From positions 1 through 32,856 of the forward strand of contig JARGGJ010000019.1 of assembly GCA_029210915.1 (NCBI GenBank): a stretch of 32,856 bases of DNA, in the 5' to 3' direction. Below the pieces are notes generated by a model, which was given only the letters and a program-made list of their open reading frames with translations, ran no database searches and was not told the DNA's origin. Of the stretch, positions 4,489 through 21,993 are shown one piece after another (the first letter of the stretch is position 1; each line of letters starts with the position of its first letter). The translations under genes and the position numbers were made by a program. This DNA is from Patescibacteria group bacterium. Its GTDB lineage: Bacteria > Patescibacteriota > Patescibacteriia > 2-12-FULL-60-25.

Positions 4489-6987
4489 ATGAATCTATTA
4501 GTATCGTACGATTGGCTCAAAGAATATGTGGGCCTTAAACAGACTCCCGAAGAATTTGGAGCACGGATTTCGTTATCCGGGCCATCTGTAGAAAAGATCT
4601 TTCCGCAGGGGGTTGATTTGGATGGGGTTTATGTTGGGAAGATTACAAAAATATCCAATCACCCTCAAGCCGATAAACTTAAGCTTGTTGATGTTGATTT
4701 GGGATCCTTAAAGCCCCCTTTGGGAAAGGGGGAATCGAAGGGGGAATCGCGCATTGTCTGCGGCGGCTCCAATCTCTATGAAGGCCAAATAGTCGCTGTT
4801 GCCGTTTCCGGAGCTAAAGTTCGTTGGCATGGTGAAGGGGATTTGATAGAGCTTCAGCCAACAGAGATTCGCGGAGAGAAGAGTGATGGTATGATTTGCG
4901 CGGCAAGCGAGATAGGTTTGGGCGAAGCTTTCCCTGTTAAAGATGATCATGAGATTTTGGATTTGGGCAAAGAAATTCCTGAGATGAATGTTAAACCCGG
5001 CACAACCCTTGCGAAAGCTTTGGGGTTGGATGGGGATGTTGTCATGGATATTGAGGTAACTTCGAATCGTCCTGACTCTATGGGGATGGTTGGGATTGCG
5101 CGCGAAGCCGCAGCGATTCTCGATGTACCATTTACATATAAACCTAGTGATTTAAAAGTCCCCTTTTCGAAAGGGGGAAGCAAAGGGGGAATAAAACTCA
5201 AGATCGAAGCTAAAGATGCTTGTTCGCGTTATATCGGAACCAGAATTGACGGTGTGAAAGTTGGTCCTTCTCCATGGTGGCTGAAACGTCGCTTATTGTC
5301 TGCCGGGATTAGACCTATCAATAACCTGGTCGACATCACTAACTATGTGATGTATGAGACAGGTCAGCCGATGCATGTTTTTGATGTGGATAAGTTGAAA
5401 TCCTCTGTCTCGTCGGACGAGACATCTCCTTTATTAAAGGAGATTAACGTGCGGTATGCGCGGAAGGGGGAGAAGATAATGGCGCTGGATGGGAAGGTTT
5501 ATGATTTGCCAGATAGCGTGCTTGTGATTGCTGATGCGGAAGATCCTATTGCGATAGCGGGTGTTATGGGTGGGGAGGAAACAGGGTCAACAGAAGAGAC
5601 GGTGAATATTATTTTAGAGGCGGCGGCTTTTGACCCGGTTGTTGTGCGTAAAGGATCGCGCAAGCTTTTGTTGCAATCGGATTCGCAATTGAGATTTGAA
5701 AAGGGTTTGTCGCAAATCGGGCCTGAATCGGCAATGGCTAGGGCTATTGAACTTGTAAAAGAACTTGCGGGAGGTGAGGTTGTTGGCGCGCCGGTTGATG
5801 TGCAGACTAAGAAGTATAAACCCGAGTCATTCTCGATAACTACAGATGAGGTGAATGCTCTGATTGGAGTTGAGATTTCTAAGAAGGAGATGATCGACGT
5901 TTTGAAACGACTTGGATTCAAGATTAAGGATTCAGGTAAAAAGCTGACAGCGGAAGTTCCTTGGTGGAGAGATCATGATATCGAGTCGGGGCGTGATTTG
6001 GTGGAGGAGATAGCTCGTATTTATGGTTATGGAAAAATAGAGGCTGTTGTGCCAACAGCAGTTGCACCACGAAAATCGGATGATATTATTGTTTGGGAAG
6101 ATAGGATTAAAGATCTTTTAGCAGGTGCTGGGTATACGGAACTTTATGGTTATTCATTCGTCTCAAAAGATTTACTGGCAAAGTCGGGGTTTGACGCTAA
6201 GGATTTGTTGCATGTACAAAATCCGCTTACCGTTGAACTGGAAGTGATGCGTTCATCGTTGATTCCACAATTGCTGGAGGCGGTTGCTAACAATCAGGAA
6301 CGCGCGGATACGCTTAGGTTGTTTGAATGTTCGAATGTGTATTTGAGGAAAGCCGGTAAGAAAGGTGCGTGGACAGATTTACCCGATGAGAATCCGCAGT
6401 GCGTGATTGGTTACATTGAACACAAAAATGGTTCACCATGGCGCGAGGCCAAGGGTATTGTTGAGTACATATTTGATACATTTGATATAAAAGATGTGAA
6501 ATGGAAACGAGTTTCGCAAGATGATATTTGGCATCCGGGTCGGGGAGTGCAAGCTTATAAAGATGATAAATTGTTGGCGACAGTTGGCGAGATTTCACCA
6601 AAATATACCGAAGCATTTAAAATTGAGTCTCGAGTTGGCGCTGTTCAGTTGGAACTTCGCAACGTAATTAACTTCGCTAAAACTCATAAATCTTATACTC
6701 CACCAATGCCTTTCCCTGAATCAAAACGTGATTTGGCAATAGTAGTTGGCGAAGATGTTGAATATCGTGATATTGAGTTAGTGATTCTTAAAGTAAATGA
6801 TTTGATACTTAATGTTGAGTGGTTTGATACGTATCAAGGCAAAGGCGTTGCAGAAGGTAAAAAGTCTGTGGCGATGCATTTAACTATTGGATCGAGAGAG
6901 AAGACTTTGACTAGTCAGGAAATTGATGGAGTTTTGGAAGAGGCTTTGCTTGCAGCTAAGGAGAAGTTTGGGGCGGAGTTGAGGTGA
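4489..6987 (+). CDS. pheT: Phenylalanyl-tRNA synthetase beta subunit with repeat-derived insertions
   Basis: PheT is the non-catalytic subunit that binds tRNA and edits Tyr-tRNA-Phe. Domains in order are an N-terminal OB-fold tRNA-binding domain (about 40-165, including the DKLKLVDVD segment), the B3/B4 editing domain (about 230-430), the B5 domain (about 440-515), a catalytic-like core, and a C-terminal anticodon-binding FDX-ACB domain (about 740-832, starting near PPMPFPESKRDLAIVV). The 832 residues slightly exceed the usual 790-810. The excess can be explained by three low-complexity inserts at residues 73-87, 222-237 and 304-320, each encoded by a palindromic repeat that also occurs between genes. 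The frame stays open through all three. The ATG start matches the MNLLVSYDWLKEYV family N-terminus. Confidence 0.96.
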   Translation: MNLLVSYDWLKEYVGLKQTPEEFGARISLSGPSVEKIFPQGVDLDGVYVGKITKISNHPQADKLKLVDVDLGSLKPPLGKGESKGESRIVCGGSNLYEGQIVAVAVSGAKVRWHGEGDLIELQPTEIRGEKSDGMICAASEIGLGEAFPVKDDHEILDLGKEIPEMNVKPGTTLAKALGLDGDVVMDIEVTSNRPDSMGMVGIAREAAAILDVPFTYKPSDLKVPFSKGGSKGGIKLKIEAKDACSRYIGTRIDGVKVGPSPWWLKRRLLSAGIRPINNLVDITNYVMYETGQPMHVFDVDKLKSSVSSDETSPLLKEINVRYARKGEKIMALDGKVYDLPDSVLVIADAEDPIAIAGVMGGEETGSTEETVNIILEAAAFDPVVVRKGSRKLLLQSDSQLRFEKGLSQIGPESAMARAIELVKELAGGEVVGAPVDVQTKKYKPESFSITTDEVNALIGVEISKKEMIDVLKRLGFKIKDSGKKLTAEVPWWRDHDIESGRDLVEEIARIYGYGKIEAVVPTAVAPRKSDDIIVWEDRIKDLLAGAGYTELYGYSFVSKDLLAKSGFDAKDLLHVQNPLTVELEVMRSSLIPQLLEAVANNQERADTLRLFECSNVYLRKAGKKGAWTDLPDENPQCVIGYIEHKNGSPWREAKGIVEYIFDTFDIKDVKWKRVSQDDIWHPGRGVQAYKDDKLLATVGEISPKYTEAFKIESRVGAVQLELRNVINFAKTHKSYTPPMPFPESKRDLAIVVGEDVEYRDIELVILKVNDLILNVEWFDTYQGKGVAEGKKSVAMHLTIGSREKTLTSQEIDGVLEEALLAAKEKFGAELR
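4705..4752. repeat. In-frame three-arm palindromic repeat in pheT (copy 1)
   Basis: The pattern is CCCCCTTT, a short loop, AAAGGGGGAATCG, then a direct copy AAGGGGGAATCG. It encodes SLKPPLGKGESKGES in the OB-fold domain. It aligns almost base for base with copy 2 at 5155-5197 and with intergenic members of the family such as 28934-28987. Confidence 0.75.
5155..5197. repeat. In-frame three-arm palindromic repeat in pheT (copy 2)
   Basis: TCCCCTTTTCG, then AAAGGGGGAAGC, then AAAGGGGGAAT. It encodes KVPFSKGGSKGG, just before the segment KLKIEAKDACSRYIG. The DNA and the reading frame match copy 1, which supports insertion of the same mobile repeat in the same translational phase. Confidence 0.75.
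5399..5447. repeat. In-frame double palindrome in pheT (copy 3)
   Basis: Two adjacent small hairpins: GTCTCGTCGGACGAGAC, then ATCTCCTTTATTAAAGGAGAT. They encode SSVSSDETSPLLKEI, in a loop between MHVFDVDKL and NVRYARKGEKI. The same two-hairpin layout occurs just after pheT at 6990-7033 with different bases, so the structure is kept while the sequence varies. Confidence 0.65.
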
Positions 6988-15992: not shown

Positions 15993-18422
15993 TTATGCGG
16001 CTTGCTGTAGTTCTTCTTTGGCGTTTTTTAATAATTCTTTGACTTGATCTATTGTTTGATTCTCGACACCGTTCTTTCGAAGTTTACGAGAGACATTTCC
16101 CAGAAGGCTCCTTATCTTTATCTCATTATTATCATTTAATGCTGTGAAATATTTTTCCAGGTCTGGATTGACTGCTTTTTTAACATCTTCACCCGCGATG
16201 TCCAGAGTTTTAAATATCTGATTTTTTATATTTTCTTTTCCGCCCGCTTTCTCGATGCTACGGCTCATTAACTTGCGATCTATTTCCGATACAGCCTCTA
16301 CAAGTGCGACCTGCAATTTTTTGTCATCCTCTGTAACAGGTGTTAGCTCGCTGGCCGCTTTTAGCATCACGTAACGAGTTGCCTCTGCGGGGTCTCCGAT
16401 ACGCAGGCTGGGTAATTTATTTATTCCATGGTACTCGTTAGAAATTTCTTCACTGGAGTTGATGAGTTCTTTTACATGTTTTGTGACCTTTCTTATTTCT
16501 CCATTGATTTCTTTTTTGGCTACGGATGCATCTTCTTTTATATATTCACTTACTTTGTCCCATTCGGCTTTGGCATTTGGCAATAAACGAGCCGCCCACT
16601 CTATGCTGTAAGGAGTGTCGTTGATAATTTCTCTTTTTTTACCTCCTGTTTCGACTGTTTTTGCGCTGATGCCAGAAACTTTTTCAGCGGTGCGCGCCAT
16701 TTCGGAGCGAGCGCGATTCTTGCCTAATCCGCGAGTCTCTTTTTGTGGGGATTTGCCCATGCCTTCGCCTGTGGATGGGTTCATACCTTTGGGGTAGCCG
16801 AGGAGTTTGTTGATTTCGTCGAGTTTTTCGTTGTGTTTAGCGGCTGCATCCAAGTCGTTATCTTGGAGTGCTTTATCACGTAGAGCTGATTGGGTTACGT
16901 AGTAGATTGGGTCTAAACTTTCGAGTTTTGCTTTTTCAGAATCATCCATGGATGGAGATTTGAGCAGTTCGGTTTTGTGATCAAAGATTTCTTGCCAGAT
17001 TTCTCCGGAGCGTTGTTGACCTAAAATATCTGAACTGAGTTTGGTTTTCTCGGCAAACGCATGAACATAATCCAAAGCATCTTTAAATTTGCCCTTTTCA
17101 CCTTGAAGCGAGATACCGCCTTTTTCTTGAATGATTTTGTTGGCATGGTCCCAAAGATCTGCGGCATATTTACGGCCGGCTTCGCCTCCGCCAAATACTT
17201 CAATGGAATACTCGGTTTTAAGGGAGCGCTCTTTGTTTTCGCCTTCAGCTCTAATTGTTGGCGCTTCGTGTTGGGATTTTACCTCGGGTAGTATTACTTT
17301 TTCTTCATGTTGGAAATCTCTGGCTGTTGGCGGGGTAAACTCTTTTAAAGTGTCCGTGTCTTTAAGTGTATCCGCAGTCTCCAAGTCGATGGGTTCCGAG
17401 GGAAGTATTGTGGTTCTGTCGGGGTGAGATTTATCGTTTTCGGACCTTCTGATGAGTTCGGGGAAGTGTTCTTTGAGTGAGTTGTAGATGGTGTAAATCT
17501 CGTTTTTAAGCTCTTCGGCGCGAGTGTCATCGTTAGCGTCGCGCGCAGCTTTGATTTCATTTGTAAAAGATTCTCTTAAAGTTGGCAAAGAGATGGTTTC
17601 ATCGAGCTCTGATTCATCGATAACATCTGAATTATTTGCATCTATAAGAGCTTCTTCTTTTTTAGCTTTCTTCCATTCTTTATCGATGTTTGTTTCGAGA
17701 TTCTGGATATCTTTCAACAGTTCTTGAGCTTCTTGTGAACGGATGACGCTTAGTTTTTTGCGCTCTTCTCTGGAGGGCATTTTGCCGTCTGCGAGGCCTT
17801 TTAACGCACCAAGAAAACCCGTTGGCTGGGATAATAAAATAATAGCGCGGGCCGGCGACATTTTGTAGGCTCCGGCGAACGCGGACTTTAGTTTTGCAAG
17901 TTTGACTCTAAGCTTTTTGATCTGGTCTTTACTGCGGATTTTTTCTTTAACGCTCTTTTTGATCGATTCACGTGAATCCGCACTTTCATCTAAAGATTTT
18001 TGAAGACGGGGCATGTCTTTTTTGATTGGTGCATATTCTTGTCCTGTAAACCTGGGTAGCTCGGCGATTTCTTTGCGGGCGAGTGCCAGAGTTTTTTTCA
18101 TTTTATCACTTGATACCAGGATTTCACTTTCTCTAAGTTCGGCATGGATTTCTTCACCATGAATAGTGTCCCAAAGTGTTTGGAGTTCATTTTTGAGTTG
18201 AATTTGTTCCTCGGTTGGCGGACCTGCTTTTTTTTGCGTAAGAAGTGCCAGCTCGTATTTGGAGCGCGTAATCTCGTATTCATCGATGAGCTTATTTATT
18301 TTACGACGTACATCCAGAGCCCGAAGATCATCGGGAGATCTTTCGTCATCCAAAAAGGATGGGAGTGGTGCTTCGGGCGTTTTGTGCATCTCGGTTTTAG
18401 ATGACTCGTAGTTTTTGGGCAT
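15993..18422 (-). CDS. Large charged, mainly helical hypothetical protein, about 809 aa
   Basis: I do not recognise a family. The protein is rich in Lys, Glu, Asp and Ala and predicts as long helices with coiled-coil character (about 100-270, 280-330, 590-800). They are separated by a disordered proline-containing segment near 340-395. One short hydrophobic stretch near residue 200 (SPARAIILLSQPTGFLGALKG) may be a re-entrant or buried helix. There is no signal peptide. The ATG at 18422 (protein starting MPKNYESS) is preferred over an upstream TTG that would add six hydrophobic residues. Converging thrS shares its terminator. Such long unannotated helical proteins are common in Patescibacteria; a cytoskeletal or scaffolding role would be a guess. 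Confidence 0.7.
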   Translation of the reverse strand: MPKNYESSKTEMHKTPEAPLPSFLDDERSPDDLRALDVRRKINKLIDEYEITRSKYELALLTQKKAGPPTEEQIQLKNELQTLWDTIHGEEIHAELRESEILVSSDKMKKTLALARKEIAELPRFTGQEYAPIKKDMPRLQKSLDESADSRESIKKSVKEKIRSKDQIKKLRVKLAKLKSAFAGAYKMSPARAIILLSQPTGFLGALKGLADGKMPSREERKKLSVIRSQEAQELLKDIQNLETNIDKEWKKAKKEEALIDANNSDVIDESELDETISLPTLRESFTNEIKAARDANDDTRAEELKNEIYTIYNSLKEHFPELIRRSENDKSHPDRTTILPSEPIDLETADTLKDTDTLKEFTPPTARDFQHEEKVILPEVKSQHEAPTIRAEGENKERSLKTEYSIEVFGGGEAGRKYAADLWDHANKIIQEKGGISLQGEKGKFKDALDYVHAFAEKTKLSSDILGQQRSGEIWQEIFDHKTELLKSPSMDDSEKAKLESLDPIYYVTQSALRDKALQDNDLDAAAKHNEKLDEINKLLGYPKGMNPSTGEGMGKSPQKETRGLGKNRARSEMARTAEKVSGISAKTVETGGKKREIINDTPYSIEWAARLLPNAKAEWDKVSEYIKEDASVAKKEINGEIRKVTKHVKELINSSEEISNEYHGINKLPSLRIGDPAEATRYVMLKAASELTPVTEDDKKLQVALVEAVSEIDRKLMSRSIEKAGGKENIKNQIFKTLDIAGEDVKKAVNPDLEKYFTALNDNNEIKIRSLLGNVSRKLRKNGVENQTIDQVKELLKNAKEELQQAA

Positions 18423-18579
18423 AAAAATGTAAATAACCAATCATCAGACTCGAAGCGAGTTTGAGTATAAGGGCTCATCCTCAGAGTTGAAGTCCAATAA
18501 CCAATTAAGAATTTAGAAAATGGTCATTGATTGATTTGGTGATTGTGATTTGGTTATTGATTATTGCCTTAATTATAGC

Positions 18580-20096: not shown

Positions 20097-20485
20097 TGGT
20101 GGAGATGAGGGGAGTTGCACCCCTGTCCGGAAACGCACAGCTTATTTATCGTTACAGGTTTGGCTTGCTCATATATACAGCAATTGCACAGAGCAAGCGA
20201 GTAGCAATGGCTGTTGATACGTGCCTTTTTGTGATTAAACCCGTATCAAGGTTTAACCCTTAGCCCGAAATATGTCGATCGAACCACAGCATCGGGCTTG
20301 TTGTGGGGATCGCGGTTGTCTTAAGCGAGAACCGGTACAGCTTGAGGCATGCGTACTGCGTTAGCAATAGCGGCCTTAGCCTTTTCTACGATGTTGGCAA
20401 TTATCGTTTTTGATATAGTTTAACGAGTTGTATCAGCTCGGCCTGCAAAATAAGTTGAAACGTACCGTCGAAGCTCGTCATCCCC
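20097..20485 (-). ncRNA. ssrA: Transfer-messenger RNA
   Basis: On the minus strand the 5' end reads GGGGATGACGAGCTTCGACGG, the conserved tmRNA start. The 3' end reads GGACAGGGGTGCAACTCCCC, then TCATCTCCACCA with an encoded CCA. The 5' GGGGATG pairs with CATCTCC to form the acceptor stem. The tag frame begins at the alanine codon GCC at 20398 and ends at TAA at 20321-20323. It gives ANIVEKAKAA, then IANAVRMPQA, then VPVLA: 25 residues, long for a tmRNA tag but ending in a typical small hydrophobic degron. The T-loop reads TGCAA where tmRNAs and tRNAs normally have TTCAA or TTCGA, so position 55 is G. Total length is 389 bases. smpB lies directly upstream on the same strand. Confidence 0.93.
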
Positions 20486-20580: not shown

Positions 20581-21033
20581 TTAATAATCGATTTCTCTGA
20601 GGTAGCGGTTTGTTTCGCGGTTTATATCGCGTTCTTTGATTTTTTGCTTCTTTTCAAAGGCCTTTTTACCTCGTGCCAGCCACAGTTCGAGCTTTATACG
20701 ATTACCGCGAGTATATAGTGAAATGGGTACGGCTGTCAAGCCTTTTTCGCTTAATTTACCAATTAATTGCCGGATTTCTTTTTTATGCATTATCAGTTTC
20801 CTGGATTGCGCCGGGTCATAATCTTCGAGTTTTGAAGCTCGTTTATAGGGTGCTATATTAACTCCAATGAGCCATAATTCGCCTTTGTTAACAACAATAT
20901 GGCCAGCATCTATCTTGGCGCCACCATCTCTTATGGATTTAACTTCTTGGCCTGTTAACACTAAACCAGCCTCAAAAGAATCCAGGCGTTCGTAGTCATA
21001 TCGGGCTTTGCGATTAACGGCTAAGGTTGGCAT
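20581..21033 (-). CDS. smpB: SsrA-binding protein
   Basis: SmpB binds the tRNA-like end of tmRNA and delivers it to stalled ribosomes for trans-translation. The 150-residue protein has the OB-fold core with NRKARYDYERLDSFEAGLVLTGQEVKSIR, the GELWLIGVNIAPY strand and the IKLELWLARGKKAFEKKQKIKERD region, ending in a basic tail. Its partner ssrA lies 95 bases downstream on the same strand. A divergent gene begins 137 bases upstream, so the shared intergenic region should hold both promoters. Confidence 0.97.
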   Translation of the reverse strand: MPTLAVNRKARYDYERLDSFEAGLVLTGQEVKSIRDGGAKIDAGHIVVNKGELWLIGVNIAPYKRASKLEDYDPAQSRKLIMHKKEIRQLIGKLSEKGLTAVPISLYTRGNRIKLELWLARGKKAFEKKQKIKERDINRETNRYLREIDY

Positions 21034-21101
21034 GGGCAGTATCGTACCTCGTACATCGTGCTTTGTACATGATAAATGGCGTTGTTTGATTTTTGTTTAT
21101 A

Positions 21102-21127
21102 TTGACAAGTATTGCTTTTTGTATAAA
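21102..21127 (+). promoter_or_regulatory. Possible promoter and strong ribosome-binding site of the dsRBD-nuclease gene
   Basis: TTGACA (21102-21107) is a perfect -35 and TATAAA (21122-21127) a good -10, but the 14-base spacer is short. Downstream, AAGGAGG (21158-21164) sits five bases before a GTG at 21170, a strong Shine-Dalgarno sequence in a genome that mostly lacks them. This fixes the start of the gene. Confidence 0.45.
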
Positions 21128-21169
21128 TCTTCAACCGAGATACTTTGTTATAGGGATAAGGAGGATTTT

Positions 21170-21934
21170 GTGGGTAAGACAGCAAAAAGTGTTAATTATA
21201 AAGCTGTTTTTTGTGATTATTTACAAAAAAGAGAAAAGTTTTGTAGGTATGTTACAAACATTGTTAAGGGTACAAAAAGTGTTTATGTCGCTAAATTGAT
21301 CATTGAAAAACAAGTTGTTGCCACAGGAACGGGTTTTAGTGTATCTGAAGCGGAACAAAATGCCGCGGAGAAATATTATAACGATGCCATGAAAATTGAA
21401 AGCGATGAGCTTCAAAGGGCTAAAAATGCAAAATATCAAGAATATTTAGCATCTCGTGAAAGATATGACAGGATTGTTGGTAATAAAACCGGCAAGCCGG
21501 GCTCTTCTAACATTGATTTAGAGGTTCTGGGCACTTTTCAGAATTTGAGGCGTATCAAAAAAGAAAGAAAAATTGCATATTGTCGTGCACGGAGTGCTAA
21601 AGGTCAGCGTAACGAGGAAATGGTGCTAAAGGCTCTTTCTGATCCTCACTATATTTATCCTAAATGGTTTGTTTCTGCACGGCTTCATGATCAGGATGAA
21701 GATGCTATGGGAATTGATATAGTTGTAACAACGAACGATTTAGGGGATTTGTATTTACAAGTTAAAAGTTCTTACACGGGAAAACGTAAGTTTATCCTTC
21801 GAGGAAGACGACGTAAATTGATAGGAATAGTTGTTGTTACAAGGATCGACGCAGAGCCTGAAGTGTTGTTGAAAGCCTTACAGGTTTGTTGCGACTTACG
21901 TAATGAGATTATGCGTCGACGTGAAAATGGTTGA
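21170..21934 (+). CDS. Double-stranded-RNA-binding domain fused to a PD-(D/E)XK-like nuclease domain
   Basis: This 254-residue protein is read from the GTG behind a perfect Shine-Dalgarno sequence; the open frame extends 54 codons further upstream, antisense to the smpB start. Residues about 9-74 have the dsRBD order helix-strand-strand-strand-helix: KAVFCDYLQKREKFCRYVTN, SVYVAKLIIEKQVVATG and GTGFSVSEAEQNAAEKYYND, close to the family's GxGxSxxxAxxxAA signature. The lysines that usually start the second helix are replaced. Residues 75-140 are a charged helical linker. Residues about 143-250 look like a restriction-endonuclease fold: helix with Glu149/Glu150, Asp183 in AMGIDIVV, then YLQVKSS with Gln197 and Lys199, as in Mrr- or NERD-like nucleases. 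The substrate is unknown; RNA or R-loop cleavage is possible. A terminator follows at once, so it is a single-gene unit. Confidence 0.7.
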   Translation: MGKTAKSVNYKAVFCDYLQKREKFCRYVTNIVKGTKSVYVAKLIIEKQVVATGTGFSVSEAEQNAAEKYYNDAMKIESDELQRAKNAKYQEYLASRERYDRIVGNKTGKPGSSNIDLEVLGTFQNLRRIKKERKIAYCRARSAKGQRNEEMVLKALSDPHYIYPKWFVSARLHDQDEDAMGIDIVVTTNDLGDLYLQVKSSYTGKRKFILRGRRRKLIGIVVVTRIDAEPEVLLKALQVCCDLRNEIMRRRENG

Positions 21935-21938
21935 TCTC

Positions 21939-21965
21939 AACTCCAACAATGTATGGAGTTTTTTT
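21939..21965 (+). terminator. Terminator of the dsRBD-nuclease gene
   Basis: AACTCCA (21939-21945) pairs with TGGAGTT (21954-21960), followed by a T run. It begins five bases after the stop codon. Confidence 0.85.
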
Positions 21966-21968
21966 ATA

Positions 21969-21977
21969 TGTTATAAT
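21969..21977 (+). promoter_or_regulatory. Extended -10 promoter of the AI-2E transporter gene
   Basis: TG-t-TATAAT is a perfect extended -10. It overlaps an ATG that could be mistaken for the start, so translation more likely begins at 21994 after GGAG at 21984-21987. The predicted leader is about 10 bases. Confidence 0.65.
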
Positions 21978-21993
21978 GAAGATGGAGAATTAT

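Follow-up and report, generated by a model that had tools for sequence, protein, structure and literature searches.

A dsRNA-binding domain joined to a PD-(D/E)XK-like nuclease domain in a fast-evolving protein family of Patescibacteria

Among the 41 genomes of the family to which the window belongs, the double-stranded RNA-binding domain (dsRBD) is otherwise confined to RNase III, and nucleases of the restriction type are generally taken to act on DNA; a gene that appears to join one to the other raises the question of whether both domains are real and on which nucleic acid the protein would act. The window, i.e. the whole stretch of 32,856 nucleotides analysed here, belongs to a genome of 1.46 Mb that is 98% complete, and the features relevant to this question are as follows.

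20097-20485, minus strand: tmRNA gene (ssrA), beside smpB
20581-21033, minus strand: smpB, adjoining the fusion gene
21158-21164, plus strand: Shine-Dalgarno sequence AAGGAGG, 5 nt upstream of the GTG (from the sequence)
21170-21934, plus strand: fusion gene, GTG start, encoding the 254-residue dsRBD / PD-(D/E)XK protein
21197-21379, plus strand: dsRBD, residues 10-70 (Pfam dsrm, PF00035 genome scan, fold)
21380-21589, plus strand: charged helical linker, residues 71-140 (AlphaFold2 pLDDT 52-77, partly low confidence)
21590-21931, plus strand: PD-(D/E)XK nuclease domain, residues 141-254 (alignments A2/A12, AlphaFold2 model, fold searches)
21614-21616, plus strand: E149, acidic residue of helix A, invariant (alignment of relatives)
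21716-21718, plus strand: D183, putative metal-ligand aspartate, invariant (alignment of relatives)
21758-21766, plus strand: Q197-V198-K199, the QxK motif, with Q and K invariant (alignment of relatives)
21939-21967, plus strand: terminator-like hairpin and T-run, correctly placed downstream of the fusion gene (pattern search)

The N-terminal half, proposed as a dsRBD in an earlier sequence-only reading of this DNA, is a dsRBD by both profile and predicted fold. Pfam dsrm (PF00035) matches residues 10-70 with an E-value of 9.6e-7 and 29.7 bits, compared to a curated cut-off of 23, and a dsRBD model built from the relatives, with the 254-residue protein left out, scores it at 14.0 bits, against 7.0 for the best of 1000 shuffles; a model built from RNase III alone was too specialised and saw the fusion family poorly. 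The AlphaFold2 model computed with alignment A10, which holds four sequences only, two of them spanning the dsRBD besides the fusion protein, displays a helix (residues 10-20), three strands (25-31, 39-45, and 48-55) and a helix starting at residue 58, the α-β-β-β-α order, with pLDDT mostly 75-88 across the domain. This model supersedes an earlier one in which the N-terminus was badly aligned and appeared as low-confidence helices. Each of the top 50 PDB fold matches of the domain contains a dsRBD; among them are PKR, mitoribosomal large-subunit proteins, and dsRNA-bound Aquifex RNase III (2.1 Å rmsd). The canonical RNA-contact regions 2 (GPxH loop) and 3 (KKxAK) are both absent from the dsRBD of the fusion protein, region 3 reading SVSEAEQ (SKQEAQ in the resident RNase III), so that canonical dsRNA binding by this member may be weak. 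Across the dsRBDs of nine relatives, region 2 is kept in none, and the lysines or arginines of region 3 are kept in eight, as in KKKRLAE (G006), NKRQAK (G027), and KKRRDAE (G038).

The C-terminal half had been assigned a restriction-endonuclease core with the pattern Glu149/150, Asp183, and Gln197-x-Lys199. E149, D183, Q197, and K199 are indeed invariant, together with W166, T188, and S200, over 17 divergent members at ~30% identity; E150 varies and drops out of the pattern. The predicted topology matches the proposed core, comprising helix A (with E149), two strands, a third strand carrying QxK, a helix, and a final strand (AlphaFold2, pLDDT ~92). In the model, E149 lies within a long helix, D183 just precedes one strand, and Q197-x-K199 end the next. 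Thirteen residues separate D183 from Q197, giving the form D-x13-QxK, and Q197, invariant in the 17, replaces the second acidic residue, as in the Mrr-like PD-QXK subgroup, which is marked by QxK active sites and includes modification-dependent DNases (PMC11347163). Fold searches with the first AlphaFold2 model, confident in its C-terminus, returned among their best matches, from the PDB, (i) SfsA, (ii) AvaII, (iii) Hjc, (iv) EcoO109I, (v) PvuRts1I, (vi) influenza PA, (vii) VRR_NUC, and (viii) Card1, the PD-(D/E)XK members of that listing all being weak (E ≥ 0.4, model 1), and from BFVD a DUF2726 match at 5e-4, as well as Mrr, RecU, and VRR-NUC. Below-threshold Pfam matches include four PD-(D/E)XK families, DUF4365 (5 members, best value 0.016), MjaI (3 members, best value 0.046), NERD, and Mrr_cat, and a weak relative from the profile search is a HARE-HTH + PDDEXK_5 protein. 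Membership of the nuclease half in the PD-(D/E)XK superfamily is well supported. None of the curated families of Pfam, NCBIfam, PADLOC, or PHROGs covers it above cut-off, and it belongs to no family described in these libraries, constituting a new, fast-evolving Patescibacteria family. Both checks named in advance as able to refute the sequence-only reading were run, and neither another N-terminal fold nor a C-terminus without a nuclease core was found; the original observation is confirmed, and its interpretation is supported.

The relatives, gathered by protein and profile searches, reveal a patchy distribution, with the family present in 12 of the 41 genomes of the window's family and matched in 17 of 381 genomes drawn from the class and 11 of 380 drawn from the phylum, the last mostly weakly. 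A dsRBD-like N-terminus, often degenerate, is fused to the nuclease in eight genomes (G000, G006, G026, G027, G033, G035, G038, and G040), with two dsRBD-bearing copies in G038. Pfam dsrm exceeds its cut-off only in G000, G006 (30.7 bits), G027 (23.5 bits), and the split G023 pair (48.3 bits for the first ORF); the dsRBD calls of other members constitute weaker evidence, since the family-specific alignment already included them. Members sampled from beyond the window's family are all nuclease-only, as are those of G032, G016, and G028 and the second copy of G033, suggesting that the dsRBD is dispensable for the basic activity of the nuclease. G023 carries two adjacent genes, the first ORF encoding a strong dsRBD (1.5e-12) and the second, ~40 nt downstream, the nuclease alone. 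The retention of both as neighbours argues that the two halves are functionally linked. The G023 dsRBD protein ends in a tail that resembles the final 35 residues of the nuclease domain and has no catalytic core, so that the pair looks like a fusion that was duplicated, with the labour then divided, and the tail suggests the C-terminal strand-helix as the joining surface.

The nuclease sequences are too divergent for their tree to decide on a single origin of the fusion; in the dsRBD tree, the family dsRBDs group apart from those of the resident RNase III enzymes (89/78; very long branches). Beyond the fusion family, every dsRBD that Pfam recognises in the 41 genomes belongs to RNase III, apart from one in a contig-end fragment that resembles this enzyme, in line with the earlier remark that bacterial dsRBDs are normally attached to this enzyme. 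One genome, G037, contains three RNase III genes, and at L040 (G037:C1) an RNase III extended at its N-terminus (508-residue frame) adjoins a helicase-like ORF. Scanning genome_contigs and viral_contigs for close relatives with the protein alone gave no match, the alignment A3 scan of the same collections yielded three loci in genomes and, from phage, a single distant nuclease, and two further viral-contig scans found no relatives. The protein encoded at 4815-5519 of a phage contig (L039), within a replication region, is PD-(D/E)XK-like but distant (DEDRAGID...DLK).

Both domains are of already-known kinds, and the fusion is new as far as open-access papers and Patescibacteria architectures show; limited searches of the open-access literature and of the searched libraries found no dsRBD-PD-(D/E)XK fusion, as the sequence-only reading had supposed. 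RNase III shares the dsRBD fold and provides the only other above-cut-off dsRBD proteins in the 41 genomes, but carries its dsRBD at the C-terminus, whereas that of the fusion protein is N-terminal. In addition, the RNase III catalytic domain is absent from the fusion protein, the TIGR02191 match being to residues 149-217 (the dsRBD end) at 26.3 versus 166.25 bits. Mrr-like PD-QXK nucleases (Mrr_cat, NERD, the BisI family, and HARE-HTH-PDDEXK_5) share the core topology, the D...QxK site, and weak profile links; the fusion protein differs in having a dsRBD and no DNA-reading domain, and falls below every curated cut-off. HicA is antitoxin-paired and is not known to have a separate nuclease domain, whereas the fusion protein carries such a domain, of the PD-(D/E)XK type, and lacks a partner gene. 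This mRNA interferase is a small bacterial RNase described with a dsRBD (PMC2701414). According to sections of the respective papers, cyanobacterial HEPN-RNase III-dsRBD fusions are nucleases proposed to be directed at RNA (PMC3710099), and CoCoNuT type IV systems comprise proposed RNA-directed nucleases, some of them PD-(D/E)XK (PMC11090510). As presented in those sections, which contain no dsRBD-PD-(D/E)XK fusion, these are other nuclease folds or large multi-gene systems, unlike the fusion protein.

Taken as a whole, the protein is tentatively read, with the chances close to balanced, as a two-domain accessory nuclease brought by its dsRBD to duplex RNA or hybrids. The dsRBD would dock on an A-form duplex, such as structured RNA, dsRNA, or an RNA-DNA hybrid, and the PD-(D/E)XK domain, with its Mrr-type D-x13-QxK site, would cut nearby using a divalent metal ion. 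The enzyme would probably be a dimer held together by its C-terminal helix, and would act alone, with no antitoxin, methylase, or helicase partner. Its gene would be accessory, gained or lost between species and kept in some genera, a patchy pattern of the sort expected if its role is against foreign or aberrant RNA. The dsRBD profile and fold, the invariant core, the G023 split, and the region-3 lysines and arginines of the relatives speak for duplex RNA; the substituted RNA contacts, the relatives lacking a dsRBD, the DNA preference of the superfamily, and the missing defence context speak against it. Weighing most against it are the loss of RNA contacts in this member and the superfamily's general preference for DNA, PD-(D/E)XK enzymes being mostly DNA-specific, with just some RNases reported (PMC11090510).

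The leading alternative, rather unlikely in our judgement, is a restriction-type DNA nuclease (Mrr-like type IV or repair) whose degenerate dsRBD serves protein contact, dimerisation, or non-specific binding. The modification-dependent DNases of the Mrr-like PD-QXK subgroup (PMC11347163), the existence of nuclease-only relatives, and a dsRBD devoid of canonical RNA contacts are consistent with it; however, region-3 lysines or arginines persist in 8/9 relatives' dsRBDs, and G023 retains a core-less dsRBD protein with a strong dsrm score beside its nuclease. Returning to the duplex-targeted two-domain nuclease, we consider still a little more doubtful its broadest form, in which a stand-alone or, as in G023, two-subunit class of RNA-duplex-targeted, restriction-type nucleases, using a dsRBD unlike the one in the resident RNase III, would destroy dsRNA, hybrids, or paired DNA as a dsRNA- or R-loop-sensing defence of ultra-small bacteria. 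No defence genes were seen by eye in the neighbourhoods, and no PADLOC model matches the fusion protein, the relatives giving just single matches at the 0.02 level.

The genomic surroundings bear on the remaining alternatives. The sequence-only reading had placed the gene, correctly, next to smpB-ssrA; this adjacency turns out to be incidental and uninformative on function, since in close relatives the fusion gene is missing from the corresponding junction. On the other flank lies an AI-2E-type transporter gene, probably starting at ATG 21994, and the smpB-transporter junction (window 21034-21993; also L083) is a variable slot: located in seven genus mates, it measures 37-201 bp in six, compared to 961 bp with the fusion gene in the window, and in G006 it holds an unrelated 214-codon frame. 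A functional link to ribosome rescue was considered and rejected, given this variability and the different neighbourhoods of nearly all relatives. The tmRNA itself (20097-20485, minus strand) encodes a long, 25-residue tag, ANIVEKAKAAIANAVRMPQAVPVLA. The neighbourhood survey of homologues that had been proposed as a check found surroundings common within genera g14 (G033, G040) and g19 (G026, G038) and not conserved beyond them. A stomatin/SPFH-like gene lies between the two fusion-gene copies of G038 (L073, G038:C6, 177-2118) and adjoins the single copy of G026, where a further ORF close to the fusion gene carries the nuclease-like motif IEVKGG (L074, G026:C4, 9293-10009). As anticipated, the gene stands alone: the 136 bp upstream contain no separate small partner of the antitoxin type, and the neighbours are housekeeping genes. 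The Shine-Dalgarno sequence ascribed to it is present; the ascribed terminator is rightly placed, but its hairpin pattern is as common in shuffles, i.e. no rarer than chance.

An RNA-binding domain joined to a nuclease with no partner genes would also suit a host enzyme of RNA processing or turnover, complementing RNase III on structured RNAs rather than serving defence. The neighbourhoods shared within the two genera above and an RlmI-type rRNA methyltransferase-like gene that adjoins in G028 and lies nearby in G006 point the same way. This is nevertheless improbable, as the family occurs in just 12/41 genomes, whereas RNase III is nearly universal, and the fusion family diverges very fast. 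Far less probable is a free-standing mobile, homing-like endonuclease gene, a single cassette that spreads among intergenic slots. Homing enzymes of the PD-(D/E)XK type exist, and the gene is a single unit that has its own Shine-Dalgarno sequence and terminator-like hairpin, occupies a site left empty or taken by another ORF in relatives, and shows a GC3 of 0.275 versus 0.37-0.46 in neighbour genes; yet no repeats were found flanking the insertion in the smpB-transporter junction, no shared target site is apparent, since the relatives lie at unrelated junctions, and the phage and plasmid collections searched contain no copy of the gene. An inactive or decaying chance ORF, for which the low GC3 and the substituted RNA-contact residues could be cited, is contradicted by an active site invariant over 17 divergent sequences and by the intact Shine-Dalgarno sequence and reading frame, and has a negligible probability.

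With a conserved fusion, an intact active site, and a natural two-gene split, the question of PD-(D/E)XK enzymes acting on duplex RNA or hybrids becomes directly testable, the candidates for assay being (i) the 254-residue fusion protein, (ii) its G006 relative (L036, 5758-6375), with intact region-3 lysines, and (iii) the G023 pair (L037, 5324-5791 and 5827-6354). Elsewhere in the window, an 815-residue ORF (15993-18440, minus strand) encodes a charged, apparently helical protein. Toward the contig end (27500-32856), the GC content climbs from ~0.42 to 0.51-0.58 over GC-rich MopE-like repeat ORFs, with an integrase/transposase fragment at the end itself, and this region may represent a foreign island or a mis-join.
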